From contig JAULBX010005331.1 in the NCBI GenBank assembly GCA_032358255.1, forward strand, positions 62,001-126,000: DNA of 64,000 nucleotides. Direction: 5' to 3'. Shown here piece after piece: positions 1 through 64,000 of this stretch (position 1 is the stretch's first letter; each line of letters begins with the position of its first letter). Made by a program: the position numbers and the translations under genes. This stretch comes from Heterotrichella gracilis. Its lineage: Eukaryota; Sar; Xanthophyceae; Tribonematales; Xanthonemataceae. Below the pieces are notes generated by a model. The model did not search any database. It saw only the letters and a list, made by a program, of their open reading frames with translations, and was not told the DNA's origin.

Positions 1-96
1 GCGCATTCGAATGAATCATAGGCATTTTCTGGGCATTGCATTTTCCCACAATGTAACATTTCCCCCATAATCTAACTGCAAGTCCCTCCTCTGCAG

Positions 97-3000
97 CTTC
101 GCCATGGCACCACCACCTTCACCCTGCTAGCCAACCAGACCGCCCTGCACGCCCTCCCCGCGGCGCTCAACTCCCTCACCACCGCACTGCTGCGAGCCGC
201 CACTGGTGATCCTGCAGCCGCCATCACCACCACCAGCCACCCACTGCCGCCGCTGAGCTCGGAGCAGGTGAGTCTTGAGCGCTGAGTGCTGAGTGCTGAG
301 GCAACGAGGGTCCAGTTTGGGGGGGAGGGGGGCTTGAATAGGCATTGGGGGTTAGGGTGTTGGGTCAGGTTTCTGAGGAGGTGTGGGGGAGGGGAGGAGC
401 CTGAGTCAGATCCTTAGAAATACCCAGGTAGGGTTGCTGTGGATTGGCCATCCTTAAAAATACCCTAGTAGGGTTACTGTGGATTGGCCATCCTTAAAAA
501 TACCCTAGTAGGGTTGCTGTGGATTGGCCATCCTTAAAAATATCCTAGTAGGGTTGATGTGGATTGGCCATCCTTAGCATAATTGTGCTCCAAGCACCAA
601 TTCTGAAGCTGTACAACCTACAACCCATTGTGCGCCATCAGCCCTGAGCACTGCACTGTAAACCTCGTATGCCAACCCTAAATCCTTAAATTCTCATATC
701 CTAGTCCTGAGCGCTGAACCCTGACCAACCCCCTGCCATTCTTAACAGATCGTCCAGCTGTCAGAGACTGCGTTCGACCTTATGCTAGTCCTGTGCGTGA
801 CTGTGGCGGTGGCGGTGCTGGGCGCATCCTTTGCGGTGGCCCTGGTCAAGGAGAGGGAGAGTGGTGCCAAGCACGTGCAGCTGGTGTCGGGGGCAGGCCA
901 GGTGGTCTTCTGGGGGGCCACATATGTGTGGGACCTGGCAAATTTTATGGTGCCCGCGGCAGGTGGGTGGTGGTGGCGGTGGTGGTGGGGACGGTGGTGG
1001 GGGTGGTGGCGGTAGTGGTGGTGGTGGTGGTGATTCAAAAGAGGGAGAGCGGTGCCAAGCATGTGCAGCTGGTGTCGGGGGCAGGCCAGGTGGTGTTCTG
1101 GGGGGCGACCTATGTGTGGGACCTGGCGAATTTCATGGTGCCCGCGGCAGGTGGGTGGTGGTGGTGGTGGTGGTGGTGGTGGTAATGGTGGTGGTGTTGT
1201 GGTGTGGGGGGGGAGGGGGGGGTATTTTTTTTTTTATAGGAGTGGGAGTGCGATACCAAGCACGTGCTGCTGGGTATGTGCGTATCATGGGCCCTGGATA
1301 ACCACCATCTGCCGCATTTACAGTGAACTCATCAATCCTTGAAAGGGACAAGGCGCACCCAGCAATGCTGACCTGGCTGTATGGCTGAGATGCAAGCTCC
1401 CACCCTGGCTGTCCCTGTTCCTCGTGGTTAATGGTTTGGCATGTATTCACGCATGCTGCCACACTCCCCTGCAGGTTTCCTGCTCCTGTTTTGGCTCTTC
1501 CACATGCCGCAGTTCCTGGGAGAAAGGATGGCGGCCCTGGCTGTGACGCTGGCAGCATACGGAGTGGCTTGCCTGCCCCTCACGTATGTCCTGCATTTCT
1601 ACTTCTCGGTAAGTAAACTGTAGATTTTGTAACTGTAATTAATATCGGATAGCGCCAAAAAACAATGAGCAGATGGATGCTGGGAACACCTTTGACTGAG
1701 CTGTCACTGTGATCATAAGTGGAGCTTTTGTCAGCACTCCTGCATATCTTGCATTTGTTGGGTAATTTTACGGCCGAGGGCACATTCCCCTCCATAAGAT
1801 GCGCGCCGTCAACCTGTATTCATGTTTGGTTACCTGCTAAGGGCGCATTACCTGCCCTCCTGCAGGACGAGATGCGCGCCCTGCAGGCCCTCAACACCCT
1901 GTATTTCATGACCGGCTACCTCGGCTTCCTGGCCACCTTCATTTTGGACCTGGTGTGGCAAATGCTGGGCAAGCAGGGGGCCAAAAAGGCCTCCCACATC
2001 GTTGACACACTGCTCCGCCTGGCCAGCCCGCAGTACAACCTGGCCAAGGGGTTGTATAACATTTCTCAGACGTACAAGGAAGGGGGGGAGAGCACGTCGC
2101 CCTGGGGGTGGAAGACCTCGGGCCAATATTATGCGAGCCTGGTGGGGCAGGGGGCAGGTGAGGGATTTTGCGACGTACATGCTGATTCACAATGCGGCGA
2201 TTACAAGTGCAATTTTAAGAAAAACAGTCTTAGGTTAAAGCTTGTCAACGACAATGACGCCAAATATCTAAAGGGCAGTGAGGCATGCAGGCTTGTATTG
2301 TATTATCACAGATCAGCAATTGCTTACACCGTGCGCCGTGCTACCCACTACCCTCTGCAAAGGCTTCACGGGTAGTGAATATTTTGTATCACCGTGATGT
2401 GTGGCACATGCGCTTATTGCTCCTATCCATGGTGCAAACGCCATGCACACGCACGCTCTGACGCCCAGTTTTTTTGTTTCCTCCCCAGTCTTCTTCCTCG
2501 TGACGCTCCTCTTGGAGTCTGGCACAGCCCAAACCACCTGGCTCCACCTCAGCCAATGGGTGGCCGCCAGGGTGCCACGTCAGCGCCACGTCAGCACAGG
2601 CAGCGCTGACTATGCTGCGCTGGCTGAGCAAGGGGAGGGAGAAGGGGGGGAGGAAGGGGAGGATGGTGATGTGGCAGGGGAGAGGGAGATGATCGAGAGA
2701 GGTGCGGGAAGGGGAGAGGGGGTGTCAATGGCACATTTCTTTCTTTGTGCAGAACTGTGCTACGCTAAACCAACTTGTATCTGCAAGAACAGAGATGGAG
2801 TGGGCAGTGTCAGGACATGGTTGGTTGGGGCAAGGCATGTAAGACCGACGGCTAATCTGACTGTACTGCTGGGGTGCATATGACCAAGGAAGTCTGCAAA
2901 AACAACTCTAAAGCAGGATGTTGTCATAAGCCTACGACAACTTCACATCCTAAACCATGTGGCCTGAAACCCCACCCCCATCTCATTCCCCACCCCTCAT

Positions 3001-5736
3001 CCCCCACATCCCTCCTGCCAGGTGTCCACCCTTCAGACTACCACATCCTGCTCCAAGGGGTGAAAAAGGATTATTTCCAGGGGGTGTCACGCCCCCCGGT
3101 GCATGCTGTGCAAGGCCTGTGGCTGGCTGTGGGCAAGGGGGAGTGCTTTGGGCTACTGGGGGTGAACGGGGCTGGCAAGACCACCACGTTCAGGATGTTG
3201 ACAGGTGAGCCAGGGACCCTTGCTAAGGGTTTGGGCAGTGTGGCTGGGAAACCCTTGCTAAGGTTTGGCCAGGATGGTGGTGAGAAGAGCTCGAAATCTA
3301 ATGCAAACTGCACAGTAGTACAAATTCCCTTGATTTTCTTGGCATTCTGGCCAACATGGGAGGGGCCAAGAACCAGATCGCGCAACACCAAGTGCAATGC
3401 AGTGCCAAAAAAAACAAAAATGGCAGCGCTCCTTACCTACGGACTTGCAGGACCAGAAAAGCTTTAATTAAGACCGCCCATGTGTGCCAGACGAAACCCC
3501 TTCCTGTGTGCGCCACAGGTGAAACCTTGCCCTCCTCCGGCACCGCCTACCTGTGTGGCCACGACGTGTCGCGCCAGCTGGCGGCTGCTCGGCAGCTGTT
3601 GGGGTACTGCCCCCAGGGGGTGAATGCCCTACCGGTGGGGTTAACGGGGAGGGAGGTTCTCCGCCTGTTTGCCGCCCTCAGGGGGGTGAAACGCGGGAGT
3701 GAGACGGGGATGGTGGATGACCTCATTGCTCGCCTCGGCTTGGCTGAGCATGCAGACAGGTGGGGTGCAGCAATGGGACCCACATTTACCCACAATTTGT
3801 TTTTGAGGGGCAAATGCAGATGGCGGTTTTGTCTGCATGAAAAAGAGCGATCCAGATGCCCGTTCATTTTCCCATCCACAGCATGATAATATGGTGGATG
3901 GATGTACTGTCGGAAATTATGTCATCGACTAAGTACTTGCGATGGTTATGGCTTCTGCTGGTGTTTGGTTGTAAAGCCTGTCTGCTTGTTTCGAGTCAGT
4001 GCAGTCCCAAATTATGACTTCAACGAGCCGGACGAGTTCTCTATGCATTGCTGAAGTGGAAATTCTGACATGGTAAGCCAATTGTGTGCAGAGTGTGTGA
4101 CACCTACTCTGGCGGCACTGCTCGCAAGCTGTCTGTGGCTGTGGCGCTGGTGGGGCGACCACCGCTTGTGCTGCTGGATGAGCCCTCCACAGGCATGGAC
4201 CCAGCGGCCAGGAGGTAAGGGTTTGGAATTACCCTAGGAAAGGATTTAGGGTTTAGGGCCTCTGCTGGTGCTATTAGACGAGCCCTCTACAGGCATGGAC
4301 CCAGCAGCTAGCAGGTAAGGGATAAAAAGCCCTAATGAAGGGTGTAGGGACCCTGCTGGTGCTTCTGGGCGAGCCCTCCACAGACATGGATCAGCAGCCA
4401 GGGGATATATGCTTTCAAGGTTACCCTAGGCTAGGACTTTTGCTGGACCTGATCCACTTGGTCGCCAATGAGCAGCCAGGGTTCCGCTTTGTGTGGGCGT
4501 TGAGGCCAAAAAATGTTTCAGGGCTTTACGATCCGTCTCAGAGCTTCAAATTTGGGTTTCAGAGCTTTAAATTCGGGTTGTTATATGTGGGAATATAAAA
4601 AGCACTCTATCCTTGTCACTTCATGCGCCTCTAACGTGCCCGTCCCTGTACGCAGGTTCCTGTGGGGCGTAATACAATCAGACGTGACTGGGAGGGGGCA
4701 CACAGTCCTGCTGACCAGCCACAGCATGGAGGAGTGTGAGGTGCTGTGCTCCAGGGTGGGGGTGATGGTGGGGGGGAGGCTGCGCTGCCTGGGGCCGGTG
4801 CAGCACCTCAAGAGCAAGTTTGGGGCAGGGTGAGTGTGGGGACCAGATCACGTCACCACTGCTGGGGTCATGTTGCATGATGGTGTACAAGTGTCTTGGA
4901 TCATGGGCTTGTCATCATGGGCTGCTTGTTGTTTGTTGTGCATCGTGAAAAGGCACACAGCTGGAGCGTGAAACGTTGTATACCTCAGTCTTGCGGAGTC
5001 CAATTTTCATTCCACTTGATGCACAAACGCGTTACACATGCAATCTCCAATATGAGTTTACTAAACATCAGAATTATGTTGCAGGTACCGCCTGGAGGTG
5101 CGCATTGCGCCTGATCAGGCCGCAGATGTGCGCGCATTTGTGGGGACCACATGTCCAGGGGCACATTTGGTGGAGGCGGCACCAGAGCATCTGTCATTTG
5201 CGCTGCCGCAGGAGGTACGGAACCAAATTTCCAGCCACGCATCAGAGCTCTCCACCAAGCATAGCAACAATGGCAATTATACCTCCCAAGAGTGCATACG
5301 TCCCTTGACCCCAATGACTGTCTCCTGGTTGCAAATACGTGGCATACGCCGGTGCCGCGATCACGCAAATTGAAATGTGTCCCCTCTTTTTTACACATTT
5401 CTATCATTGGGAGTCACCGCTTGTCCTTAAATATCACCCATGCAGGACCTTCACCACTCCAGTGTGCTTACCTCCACTGAGACCAAGTGCTGCAAGGAAT
5501 TCCTGTAACTATGAATTGATCGTAACAGTTATTCGGTTGGAAGTATACCTGTATTCTCACCCTGATCCCCCCTGTCCATGCAGGGCCTTGACCTCCCCAG
5601 CGTGCTCACCTCCCTTGAGGCCAAGCGCAGCACTGGGGCCCTCTCAGAGTACCATCTGTCTCAGGCAACCTTGGAGCAGGTGTTTGTGGGGCTGGCAAGG
5701 GGGGAGGGGGGCGAGGCGGGGGAGGGGGAGGAATGA
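97..5736 (+). CDS. ABC transporter subfamily A (ABCA), C-terminal part, 5' end outside window
   Basis: Eleven exons: 97-267, 749-962, 1475-1608, 1866-2157, 2489-2701, 3022-3204, 3519-3759, 4092-4214, 4656-4829, 5085-5214 and 5584-5736. They total 2028 nt, giving 675 residues and a TGA stop, and all junction phases agree. The order is an extracellular segment with the ABCA-type [10 protein letters not shown] motif, then membrane helices (residues ~62-270), then a nucleotide-binding domain. The NBD shows Walker [11 protein letters not shown]-loop YCPQ, signature [10 protein letters not shown], Walker [11 protein letters not shown] and switch His LLTSHSMEE. It ends with the ABCA-type [14 protein letters not shown] proteins move lipids or other amphiphiles across membranes; the substrate here is unknown. 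The catalytic residues of this half look intact. The start and any first half lie upstream of the window, so full-size versus half-size cannot be decided. Several introns hold copies of neighbouring exon ends. Confidence 0.93.
411..580. repeat. 40-bp tandem repeat, four copies, in an ABCA intron
   Basis: Four near-identical 40-nt units begin TCCTTAAAAATACCCTAGTA and end TGTGGATTGGCCA; a fifth breaks off after ten bases. Each carries an internal TACCCTAGTAGGGT dyad. It lies inside the intron 268-748. Confidence 0.9.
963..1030 (+). repeat. GGT-rich microsatellite after an ABCA donor site
   Basis: A GTGGTGG run directly follows the 962/963 exon end. A second GGT tract (1151-1195) follows the exon copy at 1039-1150, so the copied unit included both the donor and the tract. 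Confidence 0.8.
1039..1150 (+). pseudogene. Copy of the 3' half of ABCA exon 749-962, with donor site
   Basis: The copy repeats the exon's last ~112 nt with few changes. It encodes the same segment from [10 protein letters not shown] to MVPA in the same frame and keeps the GTGGGT donor. No acceptor is evident at its left edge. It could be a decoy donor or, less likely, a cryptic alternative exon. A decayed third copy follows at ~1241-1276. Confidence 0.85.
1241..1276 (+). pseudogene. Decayed third copy of an ABCA exon segment
   Basis: About 35 nt resembling the GAKHVQLG coding region of exon 749-962 (CCAAGCACGTGCTGCTGGG against CCAAGCACGTGCAGCTGG). It is short and diverged. Confidence 0.55.
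1300..1405. repeat. Dispersed repeat B in an ABCA intron
   Basis: Partner of 41230-41352, sharing CACCATCTGCC and the CCCAG..ATGCT.ACCTGGCT block at comparable spacing. Confidence 0.6.
4261..4313 (+). pseudogene. Copy of the Walker B exon end, with donor, in an ABCA intron
   Basis: Repeats the end of exon 4092-4214 ([16 protein letters not shown]...) including the GTAAGG donor. Its left, truncated edge is joined to GGATTTAGGGTTTAGGG, a telomere-like patch at ~4242-4258. Confidence 0.85.
4353..4402 (+). pseudogene. Second copy of the Walker B exon end in the same intron
   Basis: A further diverged copy of the same exon end (CTGCTGGTGCTTCTGGGCGA...). It is preceded by GGGTGTAGGGA and has a decayed donor. 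Confidence 0.75.
5445..5497 (+). pseudogene. Copy of the start of the last ABCA exon, with acceptor
   Basis: Repeats about 50 nt of the start of exon 5584-5736 behind its own CCATGCAG acceptor, within intron 5215-5583. It lacks the 3' part of the exon. Confidence 0.8.
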
Positions 5737-6086
5737 GAAAAGGGAAAGGGCGGGGAGGAGGAGGAAGGGGGGGGAAATAAAGCAAGGTGGGAGGGTGGGC
5801 GGCGTGTGCAGGGGAGGATAAGGCTGTGGGGCAGGATGGTTTTTGAGTGCCAATACAGAACATGGCAACTGTTATTTTCTATGTCTGCTTGATAATTTCC
5901 TCTGCAACCCCTGCAGGCAGGGAGTTTGCAACATGTCGCTTGTTTACAAAACACAACACCCTCTATCACACTCTCAACAAGTGGAATGAAACCTTTTTAT
6001 CAAAGAATTCCATTTCCTTTCTCGCACATATCCTATCATGTATGCGCTGGTTTGCTGCGCCAACACATAGCTTACAGTATCGTACA
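5737..6086. other. Spacer after ABCA
   Basis: Holds the G/A-rich 3' untranslated end of the ABCA gene (to ~5830) and AT-richer spacer. No further gene is supported. Confidence 0.5.
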
Positions 6087-9204: not shown

Positions 9205-9480
9205 TCAGGGTCCGAATCTTGAGACTTCAGGTCGAATTGCACTCGCCGGGGCCTCCCTCTCCCCCACCCCCTTCATGCACAGGCCCCCGCACATGGAATT
9301 GGGATGCTCCATCTCAACCTGCACCCTTCGGGGCAATTCCCGAGACTCGCGCGCGGCCGCGCCCCCCATGCAGTCGCCCCCGCACATGGAATCAGGAGAC
9401 TTCATGTCGAGCTGCGCCTCCTTGGGTGCCTCTTTTGCGGCCGCGTTCAGCATGGCCAGGCCCCCGCATATAGACGCCGA
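9205..9480 (-). repeat. MCGG repeat motif in the kinase tail
   Basis: Within the last exon, three spaced copies of a short peptide motif occur: SASICGGLAM, SPDSMCGGDCMGG and HPNSMCGGLCMKG. At DNA level they share CCATGTGCGGGGGC. They suggest internal duplication of a ~75-nt unit. Function is unknown; paired Cys residues could bind metal or form disulfides. Confidence 0.8.
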
Positions 9481-12400
9481 CTCCTTCATTCCCCCCCTGG
9501 CAAACGGCGTCGCGTGGCGCCGAAACGGGTGTCGAAACGGCGCACCCGGCAGCGCCGCGCTCGCCGAAGCCACCCGCTGCACCCGCGCATCGCCCCCATC
9601 CCCCTCCTTCCCTTGCCCTCCCCCATGACACTCGCCCCCGGGGCACGAGCCCTGGGCCTCCAGCATGTTCATGAGCGCTGGGGCGGCTGCGGGGAGCGAA
9701 GGGATGGCGTGGCGCTTCAGCTCCTCGAATGCCTGCGCCAGCTCCAGGCTGGCGGGCTCTGGCTTGGCCCTGCGCTTGCATGTGGAGGGTACTGCGCGGA
9801 TAGCGGCCACCACCTCTGCCATGGTGGGGCGGGCGCAGGGGTCTGGGAGTAGGCAGGCTGCGATGAGGTCGGCTACCTCCTGGGGGCACTCGTCGGGCAC
9901 ACTGCGGGGTGGAAGTGTTTGTTGATACGTAAGAATTAGTCAATAACTACTCAAAACATAAAAGAATTAAATAAATGAATATATAGATTACTCACATGCA
10001 TGATTGTGCGTATGGGACACCCATAGTGCATGCAGCGGGATGGAATGGGATGCAGTTCACAAGTAAGTAGCCAGCCCACAGCACCGTCCCTGTCAAAACC
10101 TTACACTCTGGGATTATCTACGCACCACACCAGATCCCTAGCCCTACACAGTGGCCCAGCTCCCACCGAGGCACGCACCACAGAGTCCTAAACCCTAGGG
10201 TTTTTCCGCGCACCTCACTGGCCGCAGCTTGCCCCGCACAGGCCTGTCGCAGGTGGTCAGCTCCCACAGCACCACCCCGAAGCTGAACACGTCTGCCTTG
10301 GCATCCACCCGGTGCGCGTTGACCAACTCGGGTGCCATCCACGCCCACGTGCCCGACAGCGCCTTCACGCGGTGGGTGAACTCCGAGTGCATGGCGTGGG
10401 CAAGGCCCAGGTCGGCGATCTGCGGTGGAGGGATGGGTTTAGGCTAGGGTTTTGGTAGGATCTTGGGTAGGGTTTGAGGTAGGGTCGTGAGGTAAGAGTG
10501 CATAGCGTGGGCAAGGCCCAGGTCGGCGATCTGCGGTAGAGGGAAGAGGTTCAGGGTAGGGTTTTGGGTAACGTTCTAAAAGTGGAGTGCATGGCGTGTG
10601 CCAGGCTTAGGGCAAAGGGTTTGGGCAGGGTTTGCAAGTCTACATCTACTATCGCAAAACAAGGGCAACAGGAGTGGGAGCAGAGGGGGTGGGGACCTTG
10701 GTGAAGTAATTTATTTCCAAGCGCATCCCCACCTTAGCAGCTCCATCCCGAGCCAGCAGGATGTTTGCGGATTTGATGTCCAGGTGGATGATGTTACGAT
10801 CATGAAGGTAGGAGAGGCCCAGCGACACATCCAGCGCGATCTGACGGCCCCTGGCAGGAGCGCAAAAAAAGCAGGTGTTCAGTGATCAGGTGCTGGAGAC
10901 AAGCGTGATCAGCTCATTGACACTCAGGTGCGATCAGGAGGTGGATACAAGTGCTGCAACCAGGTGCACCCACAGCCTTACACATCATGATCAGGTGCTG
11001 CAATCAGGCTGCCATCAGGTGCTGCAATCAGGTGTGATCAGCTGCTGTATTTGATGCAATTACTTGTATAGCTACTGGCTACAGGTGCAATGAGGTGCAA
11101 TCAAGTGCTGCAATCAGATGCGATCAGGTGCCGCAAGCAGGTGCCATGTGGCGGCTTGGTAATGAACATCTCCAGCTCACCTGTAGTGCCACCCCATCGG
11201 CTTGTGGCCATACTTGCCGATGGCGGTGTACAGGTCACCACCAGACAGTAGCTCGGTCACTACCACAGTCTTGTCATCGGCAAAATGCGCTCCCAGGAAC
11301 TGCAAAGCAAGCAAGGCATTTGCTCAGGCCCATGTAAACAAACCTATGCTATTTGGAAAACATAAATTGAAATACACCATTGGAAACACTCAGCCCTACA
11401 AGGTGCCCATCCAGAGGCGAAACAACTGAGCTACCTCCCAAACAAGGCGCGTACTCCCACGCGCGTTCAAGTGTGGTACCTATGAGACATGTCTTTTGCA
11501 AGAGTACCCTACAAGAAGCCCTAACCCTGTCAGGAAACCCTACCTGCACGATGTGCGGGTACCTGCATGAGCTGAGCAGCTCCACCTGCAAACCCTAAAT
11601 CTATAAACCCTATCTCAAAACCCTAAATCCTGCCAGGATACCCTACCTGCACGATGTGCGGGTGCCTGCATGAGCTGAGCAGCTCCACCTCGGTGACCAC
11701 ATGTGCGCGGGTGTTGACACCAACTGCCCTGGAATCCAGCTCCTTCACAGCCACATACAGGGTGTCCTTCCACAGGCCCTTGTACACCTGGGGAGCAGCA
11801 GCGTGCTGGTCAGAAAGCGCGCTGGCTGGTGAGGGTATTGTTGTACCCATGGTATGCTCTAGTGGCTAGCCAGATTTACTACAGTAATTTCTTACTTGGA
11901 TAAGACTGATTATTATTGCAGAAGGTAAGTCCTGGGAAGTCCTCAGGAGAGGGATACCAAAACCGTTGTAAACCCTAAACCCCAGTCACCTTGGTGAAAG
12001 CCCCCTCCCCCAGCAACACGTCCTCCCCTTTGCTGTCCTTGCAGATCTCAAAACCCCTAAACCCTAAACAAAGGGTAACAAAACCCTAAACCCTAAATCC
12101 CAGTCACCTTGGCGAAAGCCCCCTCCCCCAGCAGTACGTCCTCCCCTTTGCTGTCCTTGCAGATCTTCACATAAGACAGCTCAGAGTGCCAGGGGAAGTT
12201 GTCGAAGCGGGGGGGCCTCACTTCGGGGAGCGCCCCGCCAAAGGAATCCCCGCTGGTCCGGTTTGTGGTCCCAGCCAGGCTGTAAGAGGTGGCGGAGGGG
12301 TGGCCGCTGGAGCCTCCTGATGAGCTGGCCAGGAGGGATTGCCTACAAGGTTGTGAGGAGGATGTCAGTGGTGGGTAGAGGGAGGGTAGATGGCATCATT

Positions 12401-37033: not shown

Positions 37034-37057
37034 GGGAACAGCCGGGGCCCGCACTAC

Positions 37058-37063
37058 AATAAA
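37058..37063 (+). terminator. Possible polyadenylation signal AATAAA
   Basis: AATAAA lies 25 nt after the MYND-protein stop codon. Many green algae use TGTAA instead, so this is tentative. Confidence 0.35.
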
Positions 37064-45721: not shown

Positions 45722-48700
45722 ATGGAGGTCGCCGTGCTTCATGGTGGGGCCTCCACCCCCATTTCACAGCCATCCAACCCGCAACCCCTCCACCATGACT
45801 CAACGGGGGGCTGGGGTTTTGAACCCTCGCCGGCCACACCCCTCCCCGACTTCCACACCATGGAAGACTACGACTACCCAGCGGTCTCTGGAGCAATCGA
45901 CATCGAGGGGCCTACCGCGCAGAACAACTGGCAGTACCGCTACAAGCCCACCACCAGCGGTTCCGCATCCGAGCAGCAGCAATCCCAGGGACCCTCCCCC
46001 CACCAGCAGCCACACCAACAAGACATGATGCCCCAGCAGCACCCCCCACAGGGCTACCCAATACCCCGCAGAAGGGTTTTCAGGCCAGCCCAGGGCCACA
46101 TGGTGCAGCAGCGCAGGGCACCCCCGCCTGGCTATGGCCCCCACGTGCGCCCCCGCCAAAGCCCCTACGCCACCCCCCCGGGCCCAGCCATGCGCCCCAT
46201 GCGCCACCCCGCCATACGCGCCCGCGCCCGCATGCCCCACCCCTACCAGCAGCCCATGGGCTATGCCCAGCAAGGGGGGGCAAGGGGGCTCCAGCGGCCA
46301 ACGGGGCCACAAGCAATGCCTTCCAGCGCGCCACCCAAGGTGGTGCACCCTAGGGTGCCCGTCCGCAGGTCCTACACCATGCCCCCACAGGGCACAGCGG
46401 CTGTGTACCCACCCAGTCCACGCTTGGGAAGGTACGCCCCCACTCCCCCTCCACCCCCCACCCTTGTCACCCCCCCGGGTGGGAATCGCCTTTGCCCCCG
46501 CCTTGTGAATCCCCCGCTTTGCCACACGTGGGGATCCCTGCTGCACTGGCTGGACCCTTGGGCAGGGTTACCTGGGCACAGGGCTAGTTCAACCCAACCA
46601 CTGCAGGGATGCGGTTTTAGGGTTAAAGGTTTTCAGAGTCTTGGCCCCTGCTTGGTTGCGCTCCCTGGCAAGTTGGGTTTGATCCAACTGTGTTCACACC
46701 ATTCTGGCAGCTGGGAAACCCCTAAACCCTAGCTTCTATGGGTGCACTACTGTGCTGACCCAACGTGCGCAAATAAGTGACCACTGGTTTTCCACGTGTG
46801 CAGGCGGATGAACAGTGACCCCACTGAGATTGCGGCAGGGGTTGCAGAGCTGGCGTATGCAGAGCAGGTGAGAGGAGATTGTTTAGAATTTATAATTTTA
46901 TTTTTAAATATACCAGAAAGTGCTTGCGCTCCGGCAGCACAGAGCTAGATCAGCAGCCACTGTCTTTGCACAGCTTGGGCCACTGGCCTTGCATAGCTTC
47001 TTTTGACAGGCATTCTACCCATGCCTGGCCATAGGAAAGCCCTTATGGTTCGTAAGGGTAGGCACACACCTTGCTTGCCTGAGCCTAAGCGCCCTCCCCC
47101 TCTACCCCTGTGTGCACCATACCCTAAACTTTGTACTCTCAACCCTAACCCCTCATCATCTCCCCAACAGGATCAGGAATATCGTACCTCGAGCCCTATA
47201 CTCTAAACCACAAACCCTGAACCCTTAACCCCAACCCTCCCTCAAACGTGTTTAGGAGTTCGGATACCTTGAGCCCTAAACCCTAGAGCACAAACCCTGA
47301 ACCCTAACCCCCCTTCCTTTCCCCGACAGGATCAAGAGTACGCCTATCTCGAGCCCGCGCCAGGCCCCGGCTCCTTCACCCACCAGTACCCACCCACCCC
47401 CAGCGGCGGCTACGCCCCCGCGCACCACGAGGTGGAGTATTACCCCGAGGAATACGAGTACGAATACGAGGAGGGGGGTTACTACGTGGACGAACACGGG
47501 GAGGCGGCGTACTACGAGGAAGAGATGTACGACGATGGCGGATACGAGGCCTACGACCAGGGCCCTCCCCAGCAGCAGCACCAGCAGCCTGCGCACCACC
47601 GCCACCACGCGATGATGCCCTCGCCCGAGGTGGGCGGCGCGCCGCGCTACGTGGGAGGGGGGTCGCACCCCGGGGACGACGGGGGCCACGCCTATCCCCG
47701 GGATGAGCCCGAGGAGGTGCGGGTACAGCTGGTGGTGGACCCTGTGGGGACCCACTTCCGGTCCTCGGTGGCGGCGGTCAACCACGGCATGGTGGCGCAC
47801 TTTGGGTACGCGGGCATGGCGCCCGGGTGCCTGCCAATGACCACTTCGGGGGACGCCAGCGCCGCGCAGCAGCAGGTGGAGAGCCACACCTCCTCGCAGG
47901 AGCCCTACGAGCAGCAGGCGATGCAGGGCGGGGTGGCGATGCAGGGGCAGGGCGGCGGCGGGTCGGGCAACCTTGCAGGCCACATGGCGCTCATGGCGGG
48001 CGACGCCCCGGGGTTGCAGATGCAACAACCGCAGCAGCAGTACGCGCTGCCCACGCCCTTTGGGGACCAGCAGCAGCCCTTCACGGCAGTCATGGGGCAG
48101 CTGCACGTGAGCACTGGAGGGCCCGAGCCCGCGCGCTCGTCGGGCGGCATCACCGACGGCAGCGGCGGGCAGGGGAACTCGCCGGGCGCTGCCGCGGGGT
48201 CGCCCTCGACGCGCAACGCGACGGCGGCCGCCGCCTCCGCCGCCGCGCAGCGCAAGATCGCCCACGGCATCACCCTAGAGTACCTAGAGGAGGGCGGCTT
48301 CTTCGACATGCCCATCGCGGTGCGTTACAGGGTCTAGGGTTTATGTTTTCTAGTGTTTTTGCGTTCCACTGCGCGGGGCCTTGCGCAGGCGTTGGCTGTG
48401 GGGCCCGGGATGGCGGGAGGCCCACCGCCTGAGAGGGTTTGGTGAGGAAGGCATCTTCCCCCGCCCACTGCCTCAATGCCTGCACCAAACCCTAAAACCC
48501 TACATTTACCTGCCCACTGCCTCCAAGCCTGCGCCACACGCACGCACCAGCCACCGCGCTCTCTTTGCCCAACACCTTCTCTCAATGGCGCCTAAACCCT
48601 GAACCCTAAATTCTTTTCTCGCCCCTCAGGAGGCCTCATCCAAGCTCAAGCTTGCTGACTCGACGCTCAAGAAGATCTGCCGCGAGTGCCATGTCAACCG

Positions 48701-52815: not shown

Positions 52816-52857
52816 CGCGAACCTGCGCCACAGCGACTGGGTAGTCACATGCCAGGG

Positions 52858-52975
52858 GATGCGCACCGCGTAAGGCTGAGGGGGGGCAATTTTGGACCAT
52901 CCATTTGGCCACACATGGCAGGCGGGGCAGCAAAAAGGGGCGCCACCACCATGGCTATGGCAAGGGGCGACTGAG
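52858..52975 (+). pseudogene. Diverged tail-exon copy downstream of the DUF3128 gene
   Basis: Repeats the last-exon segment from GATGCGCACC through CAATTTTGGACC..CATTTGGCCACACATGG to GGGGCGCCACCACC, with several indels relative to 52672-52760. It is a partial 3' tandem duplicate with no intact frame. Confidence 0.85.
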
Positions 52976-54876: not shown

Positions 54877-57800
54877 CTAGCTGACTGTCCTCCCGTAGCA
54901 CACCCCCGCGATGTACAGGTCCTTGGCCCACTTGTCCTGCACACATGAATAAACATAAATACATGGAATGATATGGTATAGACAAATAAAAATAAGTATT
55001 TGAACAACTAGACGGCCTGCCTCTCGACCCTCCTGTCTATGCAGAGGTAGAGCGGGCAGAACATATACCATACAGGGAATCCACAGTACACCAGCGCATC
55101 TCACAAGTTCGCTTGCGCGTGCACTACCCCTGCTACATGATACGCTGTTGCAGGCAATGGAAGCCGCAAAACTCCCACATCTCTGCGAGCGCCATGCACC
55201 GCAACCCACTCGTACCTTGACGTGCGTTGATGGGAACAGCGTGGTGCGCAGCGTCTCCTGTGTCTCGTCCACGGGGGCGCGCCGGGGAATGCTGAGCACA
55301 AAGGCCGCCTGGTCGTTGGTGGCCCCGCAGGCGGTGATGCGGTACCCTGGGGCAGGGTACGGGGCACTGGTTAGGGTCTGGATTGACGGTTCAGGTTGCA
55401 TTCAATGGTGGTGGCCCCTGTAGGTGCTAAGTGCTACCTACCGCCACCACTTCAACCCCACCCACCCATCTGCATCCTAAAGCCATGCAAGGGTGAAAGT
55501 TCCTTTACATGGTGGTGGCTGCACAGACAGTAGGTTCCTGCGCTCAATACGGGGCACTGGTGCCTACACTGGGTCTTCACCCAATACCCACCTGCTTGAC
55601 CCTTCACCCTACACACCCACCACCACCACCCGCCGCGCATGCACCCACCTGCATCCCACCGCCTATGTATCCCCTCGCTTGAGTACTGGAAGTCCAGCTC
55701 CACGCACTGGTCAAGGAAGCCAGCAGACCTGCAAACGGGGATTAAAGAAACGTTGTATGGGGATCCAAAACCCGACATACGGGGATTTGGAGTAGCTGCA
55801 CCTCATCGATGTGCACATACACAAGGACCCAGCAAGTTCCAGCGATTGCAACACGTCTTGCAATACGCCACCCCGCATGGTATTGACTCACATTGGCCCC
55901 CACGTTTACATTATGATTGGGCGCTGGTTCTTGCTGGTTGCCATAGCGGTCGCATGGACCCCTTGCACAGCTTACAAAGCCTAACCCATACATGGTATCC
56001 TGGATTGCCAACCGGAACCCCTACCTCGACATGATGATTGCCCACTGGTTCTTGCTGGTCGCCATGGCAGTCACGTGGAACCCCTCGCGCCACTTCTTCT
56101 TGATCCACTCGAATGGGAAGGAGTCGGACACCTTGTAGGATTGCTGCGTGTACTTGGTGCCCTTGGACATAACCACCAGCGAGCAGGCCTTGCTGTTGCC
56201 TGCGGGGGAGGGTTTAGGGTCAAGGGCTGCTGCGTGTACTTGGTGCCCTTGGACATCACAACCAGCGAGCAGGCCTTGCTGTTGCCTGAGAGGAAGGGAG
56301 GAGGGTTTAGGGTTTTGCGTTTAGGGTTAAGGGCTGCTGCGTATACTTGGTGCCCTTGGACATCACAACCAGCGAGCAGGCCTTGCTGTTGCCTGCAGAA
56401 GGTTAGGGTTTGGATCATTGTTTGGTTTGTTGGGTTGCATTCTCCCTTCATTTCTGCGCAGGGAAGGTTGAAAGGAGGTGCGATGCAGTACCCTCTCCCA
56501 TCCCCTCCACTTCCCAGCAGCTGCATCCCCGCCATCCCCATCCCCACCCGCCATCGCGATGAAGCAGCAACCCCCCCTCCCTCCCCCTACAACCTGCCAC
56601 AGGCGGATACATGACACCCACCCACATTCTCTGCTGCTGCATCCCCGCCTCTCCCATCCCCACCCGCCACCGCGATGATGTCGCACCCTCCCCCCTCCCC
56701 TCCCCCAGCTGCCACCCCCACCGCGGATACACAGCACGCACCCCCTCCCCGCCCCACCCCTCTCCCCCCACCCCCACCTGCTACCGCTGTGATGTAGTAC
56801 CCCTCGTCCCACTTCTCCATGATCCACTCCTTAGGAAGGAACTCAACGCTCAGCTTGTACACCTGACACAGAAAACACACACTCAATTAGTCACATGCAT
56901 GCCATCGCTTGGCGCAGCATTACGCAAAGCTGCTAATCTGGCTGCATTGCTGGAATGCCTGTAACTGACCAACTAACTATGCCATCGATGCCACCACAAA
57001 GCAGCCAGACATGCACATGCGGCACAGCGCACGCCCTTGGCCCTTGCACAGCTCATACCCTTGTGGAACCCTTGCAGAGGGTGTGGGGGTCCATGCAGTG
57101 CAACCCGCGCTGCACAAAAAGCAGCAAGAAAATACCTGGGATTGGTCCATCCCGCGCAGATGACGGCGCATTCAAAGTAGGGGCCGCGTGTACCCCTTGC
57201 GCACGTGTTGTGGGGCCCATTTGCCCCAAGCTACCTCGAGGAAATGGGGGGCTTCAATGCAAGGTATACAAACCCACCTGCGCCTTGAAGCCAGTGCCAG
57301 CGTCCATGATGACCGCCCACAGCTCGGCGCAGCATCCCACGCAGCTCACGTACAGCCCGTCCTGGAACCCCTTCTTGATGTGGATCTCCAGCCGCGTGTT
57401 GCTCACGTTGTAGTGGTACCTGGGCGAGGGGTGTGTGTGCGGATGAGCGGTGCATACCCAATAGAGTTTAGGGTTTAGGGTGTTGATGTGGATCTCCAGC
57501 CGTTTGTTGCTCACAATGACGTGGTACCTGGATGGTGGGTGAGGGGGCCACGGATGAGCAGTGCATACAAGTGTAGGGGTTTAGGTTTCAGGGTGCTGAT
57601 GTGGCGCAGCAGTCCCCTGGCATTGTGGTGCACCATGGTGTTGGTACAGAGGTTTGATGGGCAGTTGACCGCGTACTCAGGTTGACTTAGGGTTTAGGGT
57701 TTAGGATTTAGGTTTGATGGGCAGTTGACCGCGTACTCAGGTTGACTTACGTCATCTGTTTTGTAATGGGCACGCGCTGCACCTTCTCCTCAATGCGGAT

Positions 57801-60800
57801 TATGGTGAACAGAAAGGATATCCTCGCTGCATGCTGAAGGCCCACCAGGGTAGTGCAACAAACGCACGAGGTTCCCCCAAAAACCAAACCTACTGTTCTG
57901 GCCGAACCCGGCTTCCCCCATCCCTACACCCACCCCTGCTCCATGGGCGGGTGCAGCACAGGGTTTCGCACCAAAACTAGTTATCAGCCCAACCTCAGCC
58001 GCCCAGCCCCTCGCCGCCCCCATCCCCGCACCCACCTCTGCTTCATGGGCGCGTGCTTGTTGTACACCGTGATCCACTGGCTGGCGGGCCACCCCAGGCG
58101 CACTTTCTTCTTGGGCGCAGCCTCCTCCTCCGCCTCAATGTCCTGCAGCTCCTGCCTGCCACGCTTCTGCCCCACCTTGAGCGCGTTCTCTATGCAGATG
58201 GGCTGCACAACCGGGCCTGGGGAGCAGGAGGTTGGTTAAGGGTGAATGTGGGGGAGTGGGCGGTGTTTTGCTGGTGTAGGGTTTTGGGTGTAGGGTTTGA
58301 GGCTCTTTGCCTGCAGGTCCTCTAAAATATAACATCATTCGTGACATAGAGCCACAAAACCTAGGCAGCTGCTTCATGGAGCCCCATGCAGGTTTGTACA
58401 TTTCGGTTTTTTAAGGTTTCATGCTTTAAGGGTTTCGGGGCACGCATCTGTGACCAGTGGCTTGAGCGCGATGTAAGCAGCATACTTGAACCCCTCGTCA
58501 AACCCTACAACCCTACATCGGTAACCCTACCTGTGACCAGCGGCTCGAAGAGCGCGATGTAGGCGGCGTACTTGGGCTCCTCATCAAATTTGAGGTTGAT
58601 TGCGCTCTCCGCAAACCTCCTGAAGCAGTCCGGCAGGTACTTGCACAGCACCTCGGCGGAGGTGCCCATCTTCTTGCGGCACACCATGAACCCCTTGTTG
58701 TCGCCCTGGGGAAGGAAGGGAAGGAGGGTGTGACACGGGGACAGCAACCTTGGAAGTTTAGGCAGCAGGCTGCGCGTCGGCAGCGCAGAAGCAATCCCCG
58801 GGCCTCTCCCCCCCCTCCGAATGCAGGTGGAGCGGGACAGTTGTCGAAAAAGTACACAAAGCCTGCACATGCAAGGGCCTGCATTCCCTGCAGCCCTACA
58901 CCTTCGGCCTCCACACCTCAAAACCCTAACATTCCTGAACCCCTGCACCCTACACCCTTAGACCTGGATTCGTTGCTACGCCAGGCGCCCCTTGAGCAGG
59001 AAAACCCTACACTCTTGCACCTAAGAACCCTAATACATTCCTAAACCCTACACCCGCGCACCTGGAACCCTTGCCAGGGCAGGCGCCCCTTGAGCAGGAA
59101 CAGCAGGGTGTACGCCAGGGACTCCAGGTCGTCGCGCCGGCTGGCGGTGCGCCCCAGGTGCGCATTCACGCTTGCGTAGCGGATGGTGCCCCTGCGGTGG
59201 GCGTGGGTGGAGTGGGTGGGTGGGGGTGGGGTGTCAACCTGGTGGGTGGGGGTGGGGTGTCGTCCTACGTGCCCTCAACCCTGACCAGGGTGTGCCCCTT
59301 GCAGCAAGCACACAGGGCAACTGAGGCAATGAGCCACAAGCCGTAAACCCTGAAAACAACTGTTGACGACCCGGCCCGGGTACAGGTGGGCGCGCGTCGG
59401 TGGATCCACCCTGCAAGGCTGCAAACGCACTCTGCATGGCCCATACACCCTTCCCTGTGCGGAGCATGGCGCTATAGCCGACAAGCACCCGTCCACGCCC
59501 ACTGATGCAACCGTGCTTGCTCCCAGCACACTTGCCTGAAGTCATCCGGCCGCTGGTCGTACTTGATGTGCTGGTTCTTGGCTGTGTCCCTCCACCGGGT
59601 AGCTGCAGCACACACCACGTTTGGGGTTTAGGGCTTAGGGTTTGAGGTTTCCTTTTTAGGGCTTAGGGTTCTTGGCTGTGTCCCTCCACCGGGTTGCTAC
59701 AACACACAGCGGGAACCCGTAAGAAGTCGCTCAGGACAAGGCAGTGTCGCGTTATGCGGCGCTTGCTTGCTACAAGGGCAGAAGTGGAAAAGCACAGCGG
59801 GGAGCAAATCAAGAACATGCGCACAGCCCCAGAAATGCGAAGAGTACAGCGGGTGCACAGCAGCAGGATGATGTGATGCGCACCCAGCCCCAGGATGGGG
59901 GCGAGGCCGCGGAGCACAGCAGCAGGAGGATGACATGACACGCACCCAGTCCCAGGTCCACCAGGAATAGGCGCTCAGGCTTGGTGCCGGTGGACTCAGC
60001 CCCAGCGCCCAGCAGGAAGTTCTCGGGCTTCACGTCACCGTGCACGTAGCTGCAGGCAAAAAGCGGGGTTTGGTGCTCAGTTTGCAGGCAGCTGGGGGAA
60101 ACTGGGTAGTGCTTAGGAGCTTCTGACAGTGCTTGATGGGGCTATCCTTCTGGTATGCCTTGTGAACCAGGCTATTTTTGTGCCTTGCCGGTTGGAGCAC
60201 ACAGGGTCCCCACTGGGCTATCTTTTCACTCTTCAAAGGTGCTCAGTTGCAGCCTGGTTTGAAAAGCAACCACGTGCACTGGAAGGCAACGAAGGCTGCC
60301 TTACCCTTTTTGGTGTAGTTGCTCCAGTATGGTCAGGGCCTCCACCGCGATGCAGGCGACGTAGTGCTCGTCCATCTTCTTTGGGTTGAGGTTCCAGATG
60401 TCCCACAAGCTGGGCCCCAGGAGGTCCATGACCTGGAAGCAGAAAAGCAATCAGAGCGTGTGAAACGTATAGTGGGGCCAAGGCTATACCAACCCGTCAG
60501 ACGGTGTATGATGCGTATTGGGGCAAGGCTATACCAACCCAATCAGACAGTGTATGACATATAGTAGGCCAAGGCAAAACCAACCCAATCAGACAGTGTA
60601 TGGCGCATAATGGGGCCAAGGCAATACCAATCCAATCAGAAAGTGTCCCATGCATATTAGACGCATATTGGGCCAAGGCAATACCAACCCAATCAAATGC
60701 ATCAGCACAGCGTGCTTTTTGTGCCAGGGGCCTTACCATGATAAAGAACTCGCCCTGTTGCCCTTTGAAGTACATCTTGGGGATCCCATAGCACTCTCCC

Positions 60801-61539
60801 AGCGACCTGCAATAGAGGCAAGGTGGTTCATGTCACTTGCACAGGTGCAGATCACAGGCTTGTAAACACCAAGTTTGCCTCCAACTTACGTGTACACAGT
60901 CCACTCATATGGTGATCCCCCGTTGGAGCAGCCTTTGCTGCTCTTGTGTTCAAACTTCAACGCAACCTGCACACCAATCAGCAGGGTCAGCACCGCGTAT
61001 TCAGCCCAGTTTTGAGGTAAAGCAACATATACACCACAAGGGAATTGGGGCTCACCTGCTGCGGCCTGACATCTTTGGAGTTTCTGCGCGTGGTGAGCCG
61101 CTTCCCCAGAAACACTTGGCCGAAACCCCCCTTGCCAAGCTTCCTGTCTACAACATACACTGGAGACTGTCCAACAGTCACCTGCGCACGACGATTTGAG
61201 GGGTTGGAAAAGTGCACTGGTTGGCAGTAGGTAGAGTCTACAGCCAATGATGACCACAAATAGGTTGGGTATGGCGTATTCCTATACAGAGACCTACAAC
61301 AATCCACAGCCTTGCAGTGTGTGGTTGGTTTAAGACTGCACTGTCTCAGCCCCAAAACACCATCCATGCAGCACTCGTTTGCAGCACAAGGCTATGTAAA
61401 GGGGCAACCACAGTGCAAGGCGCCACTGCAAGGATTCATGCGTGGGGGTGCAGCGCACCCTGTTTGGGACTTGTGGGGTGTCATCGTCCTCCTCAGCTTT
61501 GGGCGGAGGCTCCGCCTTATTGGGCTGTGCGGCAGGCAT
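54877..61539 (-). CDS. MUT9-like / casein-kinase-I-type Ser/Thr kinase
   Basis: Sixteen exons, 5' to 3': 61459-61539, 61056-61181, 60890-60966, 60737-60806, 60305-60432, 59946-60049, 59536-59602, 59062-59191, 58531-58705, 58036-58216, 57278-57419, 56778-56862, 56025-56199, 55649-55728, 55216-55346 and 54877-54936. They total 1812 nt (603 residues), all in phase. The kinase domain has [12 protein letters not shown] (~42-53), VALK (Lys73), [14 protein letters not shown] (Asp166) and DLGLA, then [16 protein letters not shown]. The C-terminal domain follows plant MUT9-like kinases closely: [66 protein letters not shown] and [13 protein letters not shown]. Chlamydomonas MUT9 acts in transgene silencing, and plant relatives phosphorylate histones and light-signalling proteins. 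The 59602-59536 exon uses a GC donor (GCAAGT). Introns hold many exon-edge copies. Confidence 0.96.
56226..56285 (-). pseudogene. Copy of the start of kinase exon 56025-56199, with acceptor
   Basis: Repeats ~60 nt ([19 protein letters not shown] coding start) behind an AG acceptor. The truncated edge is joined to GGGTTTAGGGTCAAGGG. Confidence 0.92.
56331..56392 (-). pseudogene. Second copy of the same exon start, with CTGCAG acceptor
   Basis: Nearly identical to 56226-56285. The truncated edge runs into GGGTTTAGGGTTTTGCGTTT and AGGGTTAAGGG. With the true exon this makes three competing acceptors. Confidence 0.92.
56925..56985. repeat. Dispersed repeat family A, inverted copy in a MUT9-like kinase intron
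   Basis: Its reverse complement reads GTTAGTTGGTCAGTTACAGG, ATTCCAGCAATGCAGCCAG and ATTAGCAG, matching 30165-30290. Confidence 0.7.
57482..57527 (-). pseudogene. Copy of the start of kinase exon 57278-57419, with acceptor
   Basis: Repeats ~45 nt ([14 protein letters not shown] start) with several changes and keeps the CCAG acceptor. The truncated edge directly abuts TTTAGGGTTTAGGGTG. Confidence 0.9.
58448..58500 (-). pseudogene. Copy of the end of kinase exon 58531-58705
   Basis: Repeats the last ~50 nt ([15 protein letters not shown] region, diverged), then runs on its truncated side into CAAACCCTACAACCCTACA. Its donor is decayed. Confidence 0.85.
58966..59001 (-). pseudogene. Copy of the end of kinase exon 59062-59191
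   Basis: GCCAGGCGCCCCTTGAGCAG matches the exon end ([10 protein letters not shown]). It is joined on its truncated side to GAAAACCCTACAC, with further AACCCTAA tracts at 59027-59050. Confidence 0.8.
59535..59536 (-). other. GC-AG intron donor
   Basis: The exon ends ...GACTTCAG and the intron begins GCAAGT, the canonical GC-donor context. Phase to the next exon (FRGTIRYAS) is exact, so GC use is well supported. Confidence 0.85.
59669..59698 (-). pseudogene. Copy of the start of kinase exon 59536-59602, with acceptor
   Basis: Repeats the first ~27 nt (TRWRDTAKN start). The truncated edge abuts TTTAGGGCTTAGGG. Confidence 0.88.
59865..59945 (-). repeat. Repeated donor-region unit after kinase exon 59946-60049
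   Basis: The exon end CCTGGGACTGGGTGCGTGTC and the following CATCATCCTGCTGCTGTG recur at ~59888-59925 and more weakly at ~59830-59850, so a donor-bearing unit was duplicated in tandem. Confidence 0.75.
60465..60698. repeat. ~50-bp minisatellite in a MUT9-like kinase intron
   Basis: About five units of GGGCCAAGGC.ATACCAACCC AATCAGACAGTGTATG-type sequence fill the 60433-60736 intron. Confidence 0.9.
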
Positions 61540-63116
61540 CCCTTTGTCCTTCTGCCCAACCCCTTATCTGCTTCTCCGCTTTATCTGCTTATCTGGGCAT
61601 GATCTATTGGCCCCTGCTGCCACCCTCTGGGCCCACAAAAAGCTGCCTATACTCTGGCACTCAACCAGCACACAAGGCGCCCACAGAAGGGAAGGGAAGG
61701 TGTAAGGTCTGAGTGTATGGATCAAGCGGCCCTTGAAAGCTGCAAGGCGAAGCAACACAGAAACGGACTATAGATAACACTGCCACAGGTGAAGCCACGA
61801 AAGGAATCAAGCTCAATACTCGAGGCGATCAGGCCATCGACGGGCAGGCTGCAGTTCCTGAGAGTTGCACGTACGGAGGACCTTTTGGACACCGCTGCAG
61901 CAGGCGCAACCGATTTCAGCACAAGAGTACTGCTGCTATGCTATGTCTACAATGCCAAGGCAGCGCCCCCACGGCAGAGCCGGTTGGCAGGGCGATAGCA
62001 CCTGGCTGTGATGGCACCAATCTGGCAGGCAATCAAGCTTACTGCTGAGCACCGTACACGACCAATCTATGTGATGCACGATCCTATATGCACACACCTT
62101 CGGGTGGCGAAGTGGCGCTGCCAGTTTTTTGGGCAAGGCTTTCAAACAAGCCATTTATTTTCGATCCCGCCAGATTTTTATCTGCATCCCACAGGGATGC
62201 CATGCTTCGAATTCAAACCATTTCAAAATTTGTGTTAGATGTTTCACCAGGTTTTGGGCAAAGGGAATGGCACCAGATTCTGTGGTGGAAACTTCTACCC
62301 TTGAGACAACTCAGCATCAGTTAACTTTGAAGGTTTTACAGGACATCAGCTGCGGCACCCGAAAACTGCGCCGCGCTATGACCCTTGTGGCAATAGAAAA
62401 GTTGTTCAATTGAAAACCAACTTGGAGAGCAAGCAGCGTAATTGTATTGATACACTGTGCCGAGCGGTGCGGGAAGTTTGTGTACTTCAGATTTGTAAAT
62501 GTAGACTCGATGGGTCCTGCGCTAAATGTAGCCTGATTGCCACGAGTCCATAACGTTGTATGAAGCTGATAAACATATGTCTTAGATGTATGTACCTGGC
62601 TAAAATACTATCAGAGTAAATGCTGAACACCGTTTGTAAACAATGCGCACACTTCTGAGTTCATGTGAAAAACGGAGTCTCAAGGGTAAGTGTGTTGCAC
62701 TGGATGATGCGCAAACGAGGTACAGTTGTACACGCGCAGTAAGCGGTGCCGGGGGATTAAAATACAACAAAAAGTAGTTGTTTGAATGGCCACATCGTGA
62801 ACCCAAACTGGTGGTCGCGACAGCAATAAATGAAAGTGGAGACGCTGGAAGACATATCAAGGGACTAATGGGTGAGTAGGGGCAAGGACAGAGCAAAAAC
62901 AGTGTAGTCTTGAAGCAAAATCAACATAAAAGAAGTAGCCACTGGTAGGTGGACCAGCAGTGCCGCTGATGAAAAATCATGGACACCCAACATGCACAGT
63001 GCGTGTTGTACAGGTAAGCATTAGTAAGGCTTAGGAAGAAATAGCCTATCTAACAAAATGGAAGCTATTTGCAGCATAAAGAAGGCATTTGTATCCCCCC
63101 CTCCTCAAAGTACCAA
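61540..63116. other. Upstream region of the MUT9-like kinase and spacer
   Basis: Includes the kinase promoter side and the 3' end of the next minus-strand gene. No coding exons are supported. Confidence 0.45.
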
Positions 63117-64000
63117 CTACCATGCTGCCATCACACCGCCCGTGCCAATTGCTTGCATTTCCAGGGCTCCGCCTGCCAGTGCAGGCTCCAGGACCACTTC
63201 ATTAATCTCCCCCATGAAGCGCCTTGCCACTGGCTTCTTGGGACTGGGCTGAGGACTGAACAGGTTAAACTCAAAGTCTGAGCCAAACAGCCCATCCTTG
63301 ACGATGTAATCAGCGGTGGTGCCTGCCCACGACGCCAACCCATTCACCATCTGCATGGGAAGCAAAGCAGGCGAGTCAGCTTCACTGGAATGGCTTTCAC
63401 GGCAGTTTTTGCAATGGGGCTGTGCAGTTCCTGTTTGCAGCAGCGCCTGGCCTGTGACAGTGCATCAACTCGACAAACTACGTTTGTGACAGACCAGGGA
63501 AGTGGGTGCAATATACTGTAGGGTTTAGGGTTCACGATGTAGTCAGAGGTGGTGCCTGGCCATGATGCCAACCTAGGTATAACAGACAGTGATTGCACCG
63601 TTACAAGATCACAGCACAAATTTGACTGTGTGATCAGGGGTGTGATGTCATGACCCAACATCATTGCAAAAATGCTGCCCAATAATAGGGTAGTAAACAA
63701 AGTACTGGTGCGCTAGTGCAGCAGTGGCCATACATGCACTGTGGACCATTCATTATTTATAGAGGTTTTACTGTGGACCATGCACTACCACACCACCCCA
63801 TCCCCGACGTACCGGCAGCGACACCGCATGCCCGCCCCTCCACGTCTGCCCCAGCACGCCGTGCATGTCCACCACCAATTTCGACACCACGTCCACCGAG
63901 AAATCCAGCCAGGCTTCCTCTGGCTGGCTCAGGATGTGGAAGCGCAGGAAGGGGGTGGAGATGATGAGCTCCATGCCGTGGCCGCTGGTCTCCCTGTCCT
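63117..64000 (-). CDS. Protein with HGVLGQT motif, 3' part (continues beyond window)
   Basis: Two exons are visible: 63813-64000 (cut by the window end) and 63117-63350, which ends in TAG. They join in phase 0. The first reads GHGMELIISTPFLRFHILSQ then DFSVDVVSKL and DMHGVLGQTWRGGHAV. The second reads NGLASWAGTTADYIVKDGLF then FEFNLFSPQ and a hydrophobic Ala/Gly-rich C-terminus. The HGVLGQT motif with the DYIV..LF..DF context recalls a domain in secreted algal proteins and plant root-cap/LEA-like proteins, but I cannot name the family firmly. The 5' end lies beyond the window. Confidence 0.6.
63532..63577 (-). pseudogene. Copy of an exon segment in the intron of the HGVLGQT gene
   Basis: Encodes LASWPGTTSDYIV, a near copy of LASWAGTTADYIV from exon 63117-63350. 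Its truncated edge is joined exactly to AACCCTAAACCCTACAG (plus-strand TAGGGTTTAGGGTT). Confidence 0.9.

Follow-up and report, generated by a model that had tools for sequence, protein, structure and literature searches.

The stretch of DNA analysed here, called the window, covers 64 kb of the genome of Heterotrichella gracilis (Xanthophyceae; contig JAULBX010005331.1 of assembly GCA_032358255.1, C55:62001-126000), and the introns of its genes carry short copies of neighbouring exon edges together with patches of telomere-type sequence (CCCTAAA/TTTAGGG). The assembly holds 68.5 Mb in 903 contigs. The window was analysed together with 200 kb of contig C2 of the same genome, and the counts below refer to the resulting 264 kb unless another scope is named. 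A gene finder self-trained on these two stretches predicted 33 genes with about 400 introns (403 in the training set, 406 in the list), a median intron length of 280 nt and the splice consensus sequences CAG/GT[AG][AG]G for donors and TGCAG/G for acceptors, the slash marking the exon border. All exon and intron labels are predictions of this gene finder, which learned its intron model from the DNA analysed here. Eight genes were predicted in the window, and Pfam backed four of the five window proteins that were scanned.

Exon-edge copies and patches in the window

The units found in the window are listed below with their strand. The native copy is the edge of the exon itself, the linker is the sequence between two copies, p values refer to telomere alignment scores, and positions marked "predicted" are those of the original prediction, which had been made from the sequence letters of the window.

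4092-4214 (+): native exon of the ABC-transporter gene (gene finder; Pfam ABC_tran), the donor edge of which is copied
4245-4258 (+): telomere patch, TTTAGGGTTTAGGG
4264-4311 (+): donor-edge copy (predicted 4261), followed by a third copy at 4341-4401
10385-10567 (-): acceptor-edge duplication absent from the original prediction, 92% identity; native 10385-10455, telomere-like linker 10456-10495 (p=0.060), copy 10496-10567
11516-11587 (-): donor-edge copy (predicted 11544), 92% identical to native 11618-11690
11588-11617 (-): telomere-like linker, p=0.020
11952-12048 (-): donor-edge copy (predicted 11989), 90% identical to native 12073-12166
12055-12097 (-): telomere patch between these copies, overlapping the aligned native copy; linker p=0.010
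21208-21481 (+): direct pair, 21208-21278 and 21411-21481, around patch 21275-21289, 90% identity; further copy at 21588-21642
47135-47311 (+): two acceptor-edge copies with CCCTAAA-type sequence (predicted 47170 and 47251), overlap score p=0.005; the native acceptor lies before exon 47330
56142-56396 (-): three acceptor-edge units in the MUT9-type kinase gene, native 56142-56203 and copies 56228-56288 and 56335-56396; none of the 5 homologues examined has the extra segments
56209-56220 (-): telomere patch
56302-56328 (-): telomere patch
57466-57481 (-): telomere patch adjoining copy 57483-57604 on its truncated side
57483-57604 (-): acceptor-edge copy of exon 57278-57419 (predicted 57482), 78% identity
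57650-57749 (-): cleanest unit, wholly intronic; 40-bp direct repeats, 100% identical (57650-57689 and 57710-57749), around a 20-nt telomere patch (57690-57709)
58448-58502 (-): donor-side copy ending at the donor, with CACAG/AT in place of GT; native 58531-58588
58503-58530 (-): degenerate telomere-like linker, p=0.030
59573-59708 (-): acceptor-edge duplication (predicted 59669), 93% identity; native acceptor edge 59573-59614, telomere-like linker 59615-59666 (p=0.005), copy 59667-59708
63519-63573 (-): exon sequence 63298-63340 copied at 63531-63573, with patch 63519-63532; the copy lacks the acceptor, ending about 10 nt short of it

Copies and telomere-like patches were thus present at all 11 coordinates of the original prediction. 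It had further stated that every copy keeps exactly one splice site, which by alignment and inspection applies to 9 of the 11; the copy at 58448 has AT for GT, and that at 63532 consists of exon sequence only. Its statement that at least eight genes are affected was too high, as copies of exon sequence occur in five of the eight predicted genes of the window.

Roughly half of the window's 23 non-overlapping repeat pairs lie in the kinase gene (55897-63573, minus strand). Its product shows 58-68% identity to plant and green-algal homologues, where these are named, among the 120 matches listed. This homology points to a green alga, without a close relative among those matches. Several splice-edge copies were called as exons by the gene finder, and those exons of the kinase gene that were called on copies near 56142-56802 are absent in 5 of 5 homologues examined. 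At 852-1219, in the ABC-transporter gene, lies a tandem pair of which both copies were mostly called exon; they differ by 7 synonymous and no non-synonymous codons, and the copy may be a duplicate exon that is, or was until recently, in use. No match came from Rfam and tRNA scans of the window. The RuBisCO large-subunit family had no match anywhere in the assembly, from which the plastid genome may be absent.

Local duplications at exon-intron borders

Repeat pairs lying within 1.5 kb of each other were nearly all in direct orientation (90 direct versus 2 inverted), and in being both direct and local they resemble duplications that arise in nick repair. Of 71 non-overlapping direct pairs, the window contributed 23 and C2 contributed 48, and leaving out 5 purely exonic pairs gave 66 for counting, or about one local duplication per 4 kb. 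Between the 10th and the 90th percentile the copied stretch measured about 45-190 nt. The native copy held an exon-intron border in 47 of the 66 pairs, while 11 pairs were intronic and none was intergenic; the rest comprised 7 copies of exon sequence (6 placed in an intron and 1 past the gene end) and 1 pair at a gene end. Random placement of segments of the same lengths gave border, intron and intergenic counts of 24.5 : 38.8 : 17.2, so that a border share of 47 out of 58 stands against 30% expected. Below, the 47 pairs form the strict border class, and a looser class of 55 adds the 7 pairs with a purely exonic native copy and the one at a gene end. Among pairs of at least 90% identity the border share was still 10 of 14 (p=0.002). 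Neutral intronic pairs diverge faster and become harder to see, which in our judgement does not explain the bias in this youngest class. The pattern is real, and it extends beyond the window. Since borders exceed both intron interiors and intergenic DNA, it also suggests that the underlying breaks favour exons or transcribed DNA.

At another locus of the genome, L031, several copies of a unit of about 30 nt are separated by telomere-like linkers, which indicates that the process can repeat at one site.

Repeats that meet splice borders could be read as the two halves of a tandem duplication, or of an introner-like insertion, that created an intron within an exon. Introners use target-site duplications, and both copies touch a predicted border in 15 of the 66 pairs. 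However, for 32 of the 47 border pairs the second copy lies entirely within the intron, and no shared element besides the telomere motif was noticed, though no systematic search for one was made. A diagonal test of intron gain was negative as well: among 314 introns there was none whose end resembled the end of the upstream exon or whose start resembled the start of the downstream exon (60% over 30 nt). We find intron gain barely credible as the source of these repeats. A different arrangement is described in the portions covered of Rogers and Bendich (2025; PMC11782384), where direct repeats of 4-30 bp at both intron ends, regarded as traces of break repair, are read as intron insertion; here, in contrast, one border is copied into the intron.

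The telomere-type motif and its link to the copies

Contigs C70 and C140 open with CCCTAAA arrays, which identifies TTTAGGG as the telomere type of this genome. All 14 rotations of the motif were the top over-represented 7-mers of introns, at 5-12 times expectation among words seen at least 25 times. On the sense strand, TTTAGGG and CCCTAAA each occurred 4.7 times per 10 kb of intron, 0.8 times between genes and about 0.1 times or less in exons, compared with 0.4-1.2 per 10 kb of intron for control 7-mers. Perfect telomere runs of at least 12 nt were intronic in 58 of 59 cases, with 1 intergenic and none exonic, and the fraction of sequence masked as telomeric was 0.0009 (window) and 0.0021 (C2) between genes versus 0.0244 and 0.0131 in introns. 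An exact telomere 21-mer had 834 matches in the genome, counting overlaps and terminal arrays, while the reversed control had none; the matches listed were mostly internal. Short arrays of the species' own telomere repeat thus lie at internal sites, as is the case for interstitial telomeric sequences (ITS). The preference of plant telo boxes for promoter or 5' flanking DNA was not seen, the motif being intronic. Close to a telomere array near the end of contig C46 (locus L036), there is a variant repeat of TTTTAGG type.

The motif was concentrated between the copies. A telomere 8-mer was found in 17 of 54 linkers. Of the outer flanks, 5 of 51 carried one (Fisher p=0.006), and random intron segments gave 4.1 +- 1.9; linkers shorter than 7 nt were dropped, and this set includes 4 exonic pairs. 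Omitting these and 3 linkers not placed in introns left 17 of 47 intronic linkers with the 8-mer, against 4.1 +- 1.9 and a maximum of 11 in 2000 draws of position-matched windows, which were taken at the same splice-site distance from introns without repeats. The linker alignment score reached p<0.05 in 17 of 66 pairs (window, 8 of 22; C2, 9 of 44). Linkers had a median length of 40 nt, and 35 of 55 measured at least 25 nt. Looking from the patches, 30 of 175 intronic patches were flanked by direct repeats, compared with 4.2% of 1750 pseudo-patches.

The original prediction had placed the patches at the truncated edge of each copy and not at the splice side, and this polarity was borne out. 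For 12 of the 47 pairs of the strict border class the truncated edge had a telomere 7-mer no more than 20 nt away, and for 3 of the 47 the splice-side edge had one (discordant pairs 11 versus 2, p=0.011), the rate in random introns being 4.5%. In the looser class the counts were 15 versus 4 of 55 (p=0.004), and in C2 alone, a stretch on which the original prediction was not based, 5 versus 2 of 34.

A second sample was picked by pattern alone and consisted of patches of pure telomere repeat, 21 nt or longer, 29 of 32 loci being usable. L036 and L037 were dropped as contig-end telomeres in which the stretch aligned to itself, and L039 as the same site as L038; L001 lies inside the C2 stretch already analysed. 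Flanking direct repeats were present at 13 of these 29 patches, not all of which need be intronic, compared with 144 of 3000 intronic controls (4.8%, p=2e-10) at a score limit of 36, chosen after a score of 38 had been observed; at a score of 45 the count was 10 of 29. Flanks are modified as is typical of end joining at ITS, here in the form of a duplication, and in 10 of the 13 flanked patches one copy starts no more than 16 nt from the patch's right side. Because the association survives position-matched controls and recurs in patches picked by pattern, a single process linking patch and copy is supported.

The most compact example, L038, is a perfect 40-nt telomere array between perfect 19-bp direct repeats with no gap. 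To judge from their sequence, L038 and the unit at 57650-57749 look like one-step insertions with target duplication. Of 21 junctions viewed by eye for microhomology, that at 57650-57749 has TTA preceding GGGTTTAGGG, and L038 has none. Pure patches occur in L038, L003 and L046, which are loci selected for purity.

Another way to link patch and copy is that telomere-like microsatellites were in the introns first and acted as fragile sites, at which stalled forks or nicks produced small local duplications alongside. The motif is indeed enriched near splice sites also in introns without a detected repeat, degenerate patches lie between young copies, and 16 of the 29 pure patches have no flanking repeat. 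On the other hand, this explanation fits poorly with the apparent one-step insertions at L038 and 57650-57749, and it leaves the rarity of the motif between genes unexplained; we regard it as unlikely.

The orientation of the patches bears on a further explanation, in which TTTAGGG, as a G-run, serves as a splicing signal next to donors and CCCTAA, as a pyrimidine-rich or branch-site-like sequence, next to acceptors, the tandem duplications being independent of both. On the sense strand, patches at donor copies were G-rich in 13 cases and C-rich in 3, and those at acceptor copies were G-rich in none and C-rich in 3. Counting overlapping matches genome-wide, (CCCTAAA)2 preceded the TGCAGG acceptor 310 times and (TTTAGGG)2 144 times. 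Such an acceptor bias may instead reflect selection against TTTAG immediately before the true AG, where it would supply a competing AG. After donors, however, the orientations were nearly even genome-wide (52 G-rich versus 43 C-rich, overlapping matches counted), which argues that the patch arises in DNA and is not an RNA signal. A strict strand rule that would prove an RNA-level signal was ruled out by the presence of both orientations at donors. Furthermore, every rotation of the motif is enriched without a single core word, and position-matched controls fail to explain the link between patch and copy. We therefore give little credence to intron composition as the explanation.

Origin and fate of the copies

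We consider it probable, with appreciable room for doubt, that the units are neutral scars of break repair in gene bodies. Repair in which a telomere-like filler is added and a local stretch re-copied had been one reading offered by the original prediction, and it fits best. DNA would break close to an exon-intron border, a short telomere-like filler would be added during repair, and the adjoining stretch of about 45-190 nt would be re-copied in direct orientation, either by fill-in of staggered ends in the compact cases or by slipped re-annealing upstream where spacers are long. If the re-copied stretch spans the splice junction, the filler and the spare copy would fall in the intron while the outer splice site still works, and the insert would then be spliced out, persist and decay as neutral DNA. 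The same insert staying in the exon would introduce stops or frameshifts and be lost; both telomere strands carry stop triplets (TAG, TAA), so an exon-internal insert would usually be lost. In every duplication across a splice junction, the truncated edge of the exon points toward the space separating the copies, so that no special machinery is needed to account for the polarity or for the one splice site that is kept. From the motif it is plausible that telomerase acting on a free 3' end makes the filler, and pairs without a patch today are assumed to belong to the same process.

Several observations weigh against this account. In about three quarters of the pairs (49 of 66) the linker gives no significant telomere signal, and 16 of the 29 pure patches have no flanking repeat. 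The expected trend with age is weak: the signal was found in 8 of 19 pairs of at least 88% identity versus 9 of 47 older ones (p=0.055), and the difference is driven by the window (5 of 7 versus 3 of 15; C2, 3 of 12 versus 6 of 32). Linkers are often degenerate though the copies flanking them are 92-96% identical, and degenerate patches between young copies are unlike a faithful telomerase product. Given the long linkers and the alignments that end at the copy end, fill-in of staggered ends is not obviously sufficient for all cases. Finally, the borders are predicted ones, and the intron model may pull telomere-rich DNA into introns.

A broader version would have telomerase routinely taking part in mending transcription-linked breaks in exons in this algal lineage, with those inserts surviving whose re-copied stretch carried a splice site and so shifted them into an intron, so that thousands of introns grew in this way and telomerase-assisted break mending with rescue by splicing-out became a main force of intron expansion. 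We see this as a tentative possibility, and a doubtful one.

The fate of the copies was followed in 40 pairs in which one copy is coding and the other is not. Mismatch rates at codon positions 1, 2 and 3 were 0.115, 0.112 and 0.211, the profile predicted for a drifting copy combined with synonymous change in the exon. Changed codons were non-synonymous in 141 cases and synonymous in 95, and 18 of the 40 copies contained a frame-breaking gap. The copied splice dinucleotide was intact in 38 of 43 pairs (26 of 29 donors and 12 of 14 acceptors), a count that covers simple donor and acceptor layouts and excludes the 12 of 55 pairs without such a layout. Neutral drift at 0.11 per site would leave about 79% of dinucleotides, and the observed number is near this expectation, so that selection is not clearly indicated in either direction. 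Taken together, the copies evolve as neutral DNA.

The retained dinucleotides and the strength of the decoy donors, which equals that of native donors at the median, could also be taken to mean that the copies function as decoys or spare exons in the regulation of splicing, as could copy 4264-4311, with 7 synonymous and 1 non-synonymous codon differences from its exon. Unlike the set as a whole, that copy could be an exception to neutral decay. For the set as a whole a decoy function was rejected, given the neutral drift, the frameshifts and a dinucleotide count that is not clearly above the drift expectation; we consider it very improbable, and the suggestion of the original prediction that decoy sites could shape splicing was not supported as a statement of function. 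Neutral evolution of the set instead points to scars and away from regulatory decoys.

The ingredients of break repair with a telomere-like filler have precedents. Nergadze (2007; PMC2246262), in the portions covered, describes rodent and primate ITS that entered at double-strand breaks with a link to telomerase, the flanks being unmodified, deleted, extended or duplicated. Deletion is the commonest there; 6 of 130 rodent and 4 of 25 primate inserts come with a duplication, and older inserts are more mutated. As far as those portions go, the patches studied here resemble mammalian ITS in being short telomeric inserts at single sites and differ from them in that repeats flank 13 of 29 pure patches, the duplications are mostly at borders and the patches are often degenerate. 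For plant telo boxes, Gaspin (2010; PMC3022908) proposes non-processive telomerase extension of free 3' ends in transcribed DNA followed by error-prone repair. Those boxes favour 5' regions, in contrast to the intronic motif seen here, which is rare between genes, and flanking duplications, present here, are not mentioned in the text covered.

Local duplications of tens of bases in direct orientation reportedly result from repair of adjacent nicks in plants (Schiml, 2016), and to our knowledge they involve neither a telomere filler nor a link to splice borders. Unlike these, the copies in H. gracilis often lie at least 25 nt apart.

No description of telomere-patched, border-spanning intronic duplications was found among the papers that the literature searches listed, 10-12 in several of the searches, which were judged mostly by titles and abstract openings. 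The claim of the original prediction that the combined structure is undescribed agrees with this, but each of its ingredients had already been described. Judged on the same sources, mammals are known to gain telomere repeats at breaks, plants have been proposed to do so, and the border-spanning form that carries a splice site would be the new part.

Copies of this kind can be miscalled as exons, which calls for caution with gene predictors. If the reading as break-repair scars is true, the introns of H. gracilis hold a dense and datable natural record of break mending inside genes, a quarter of it with a telomere-like linker, and the addition of telomere repeats would be tied to intron growth. 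The rule that it suggests is that an insertion that duplicates a splice junction gets spliced out and is thereby tolerated.

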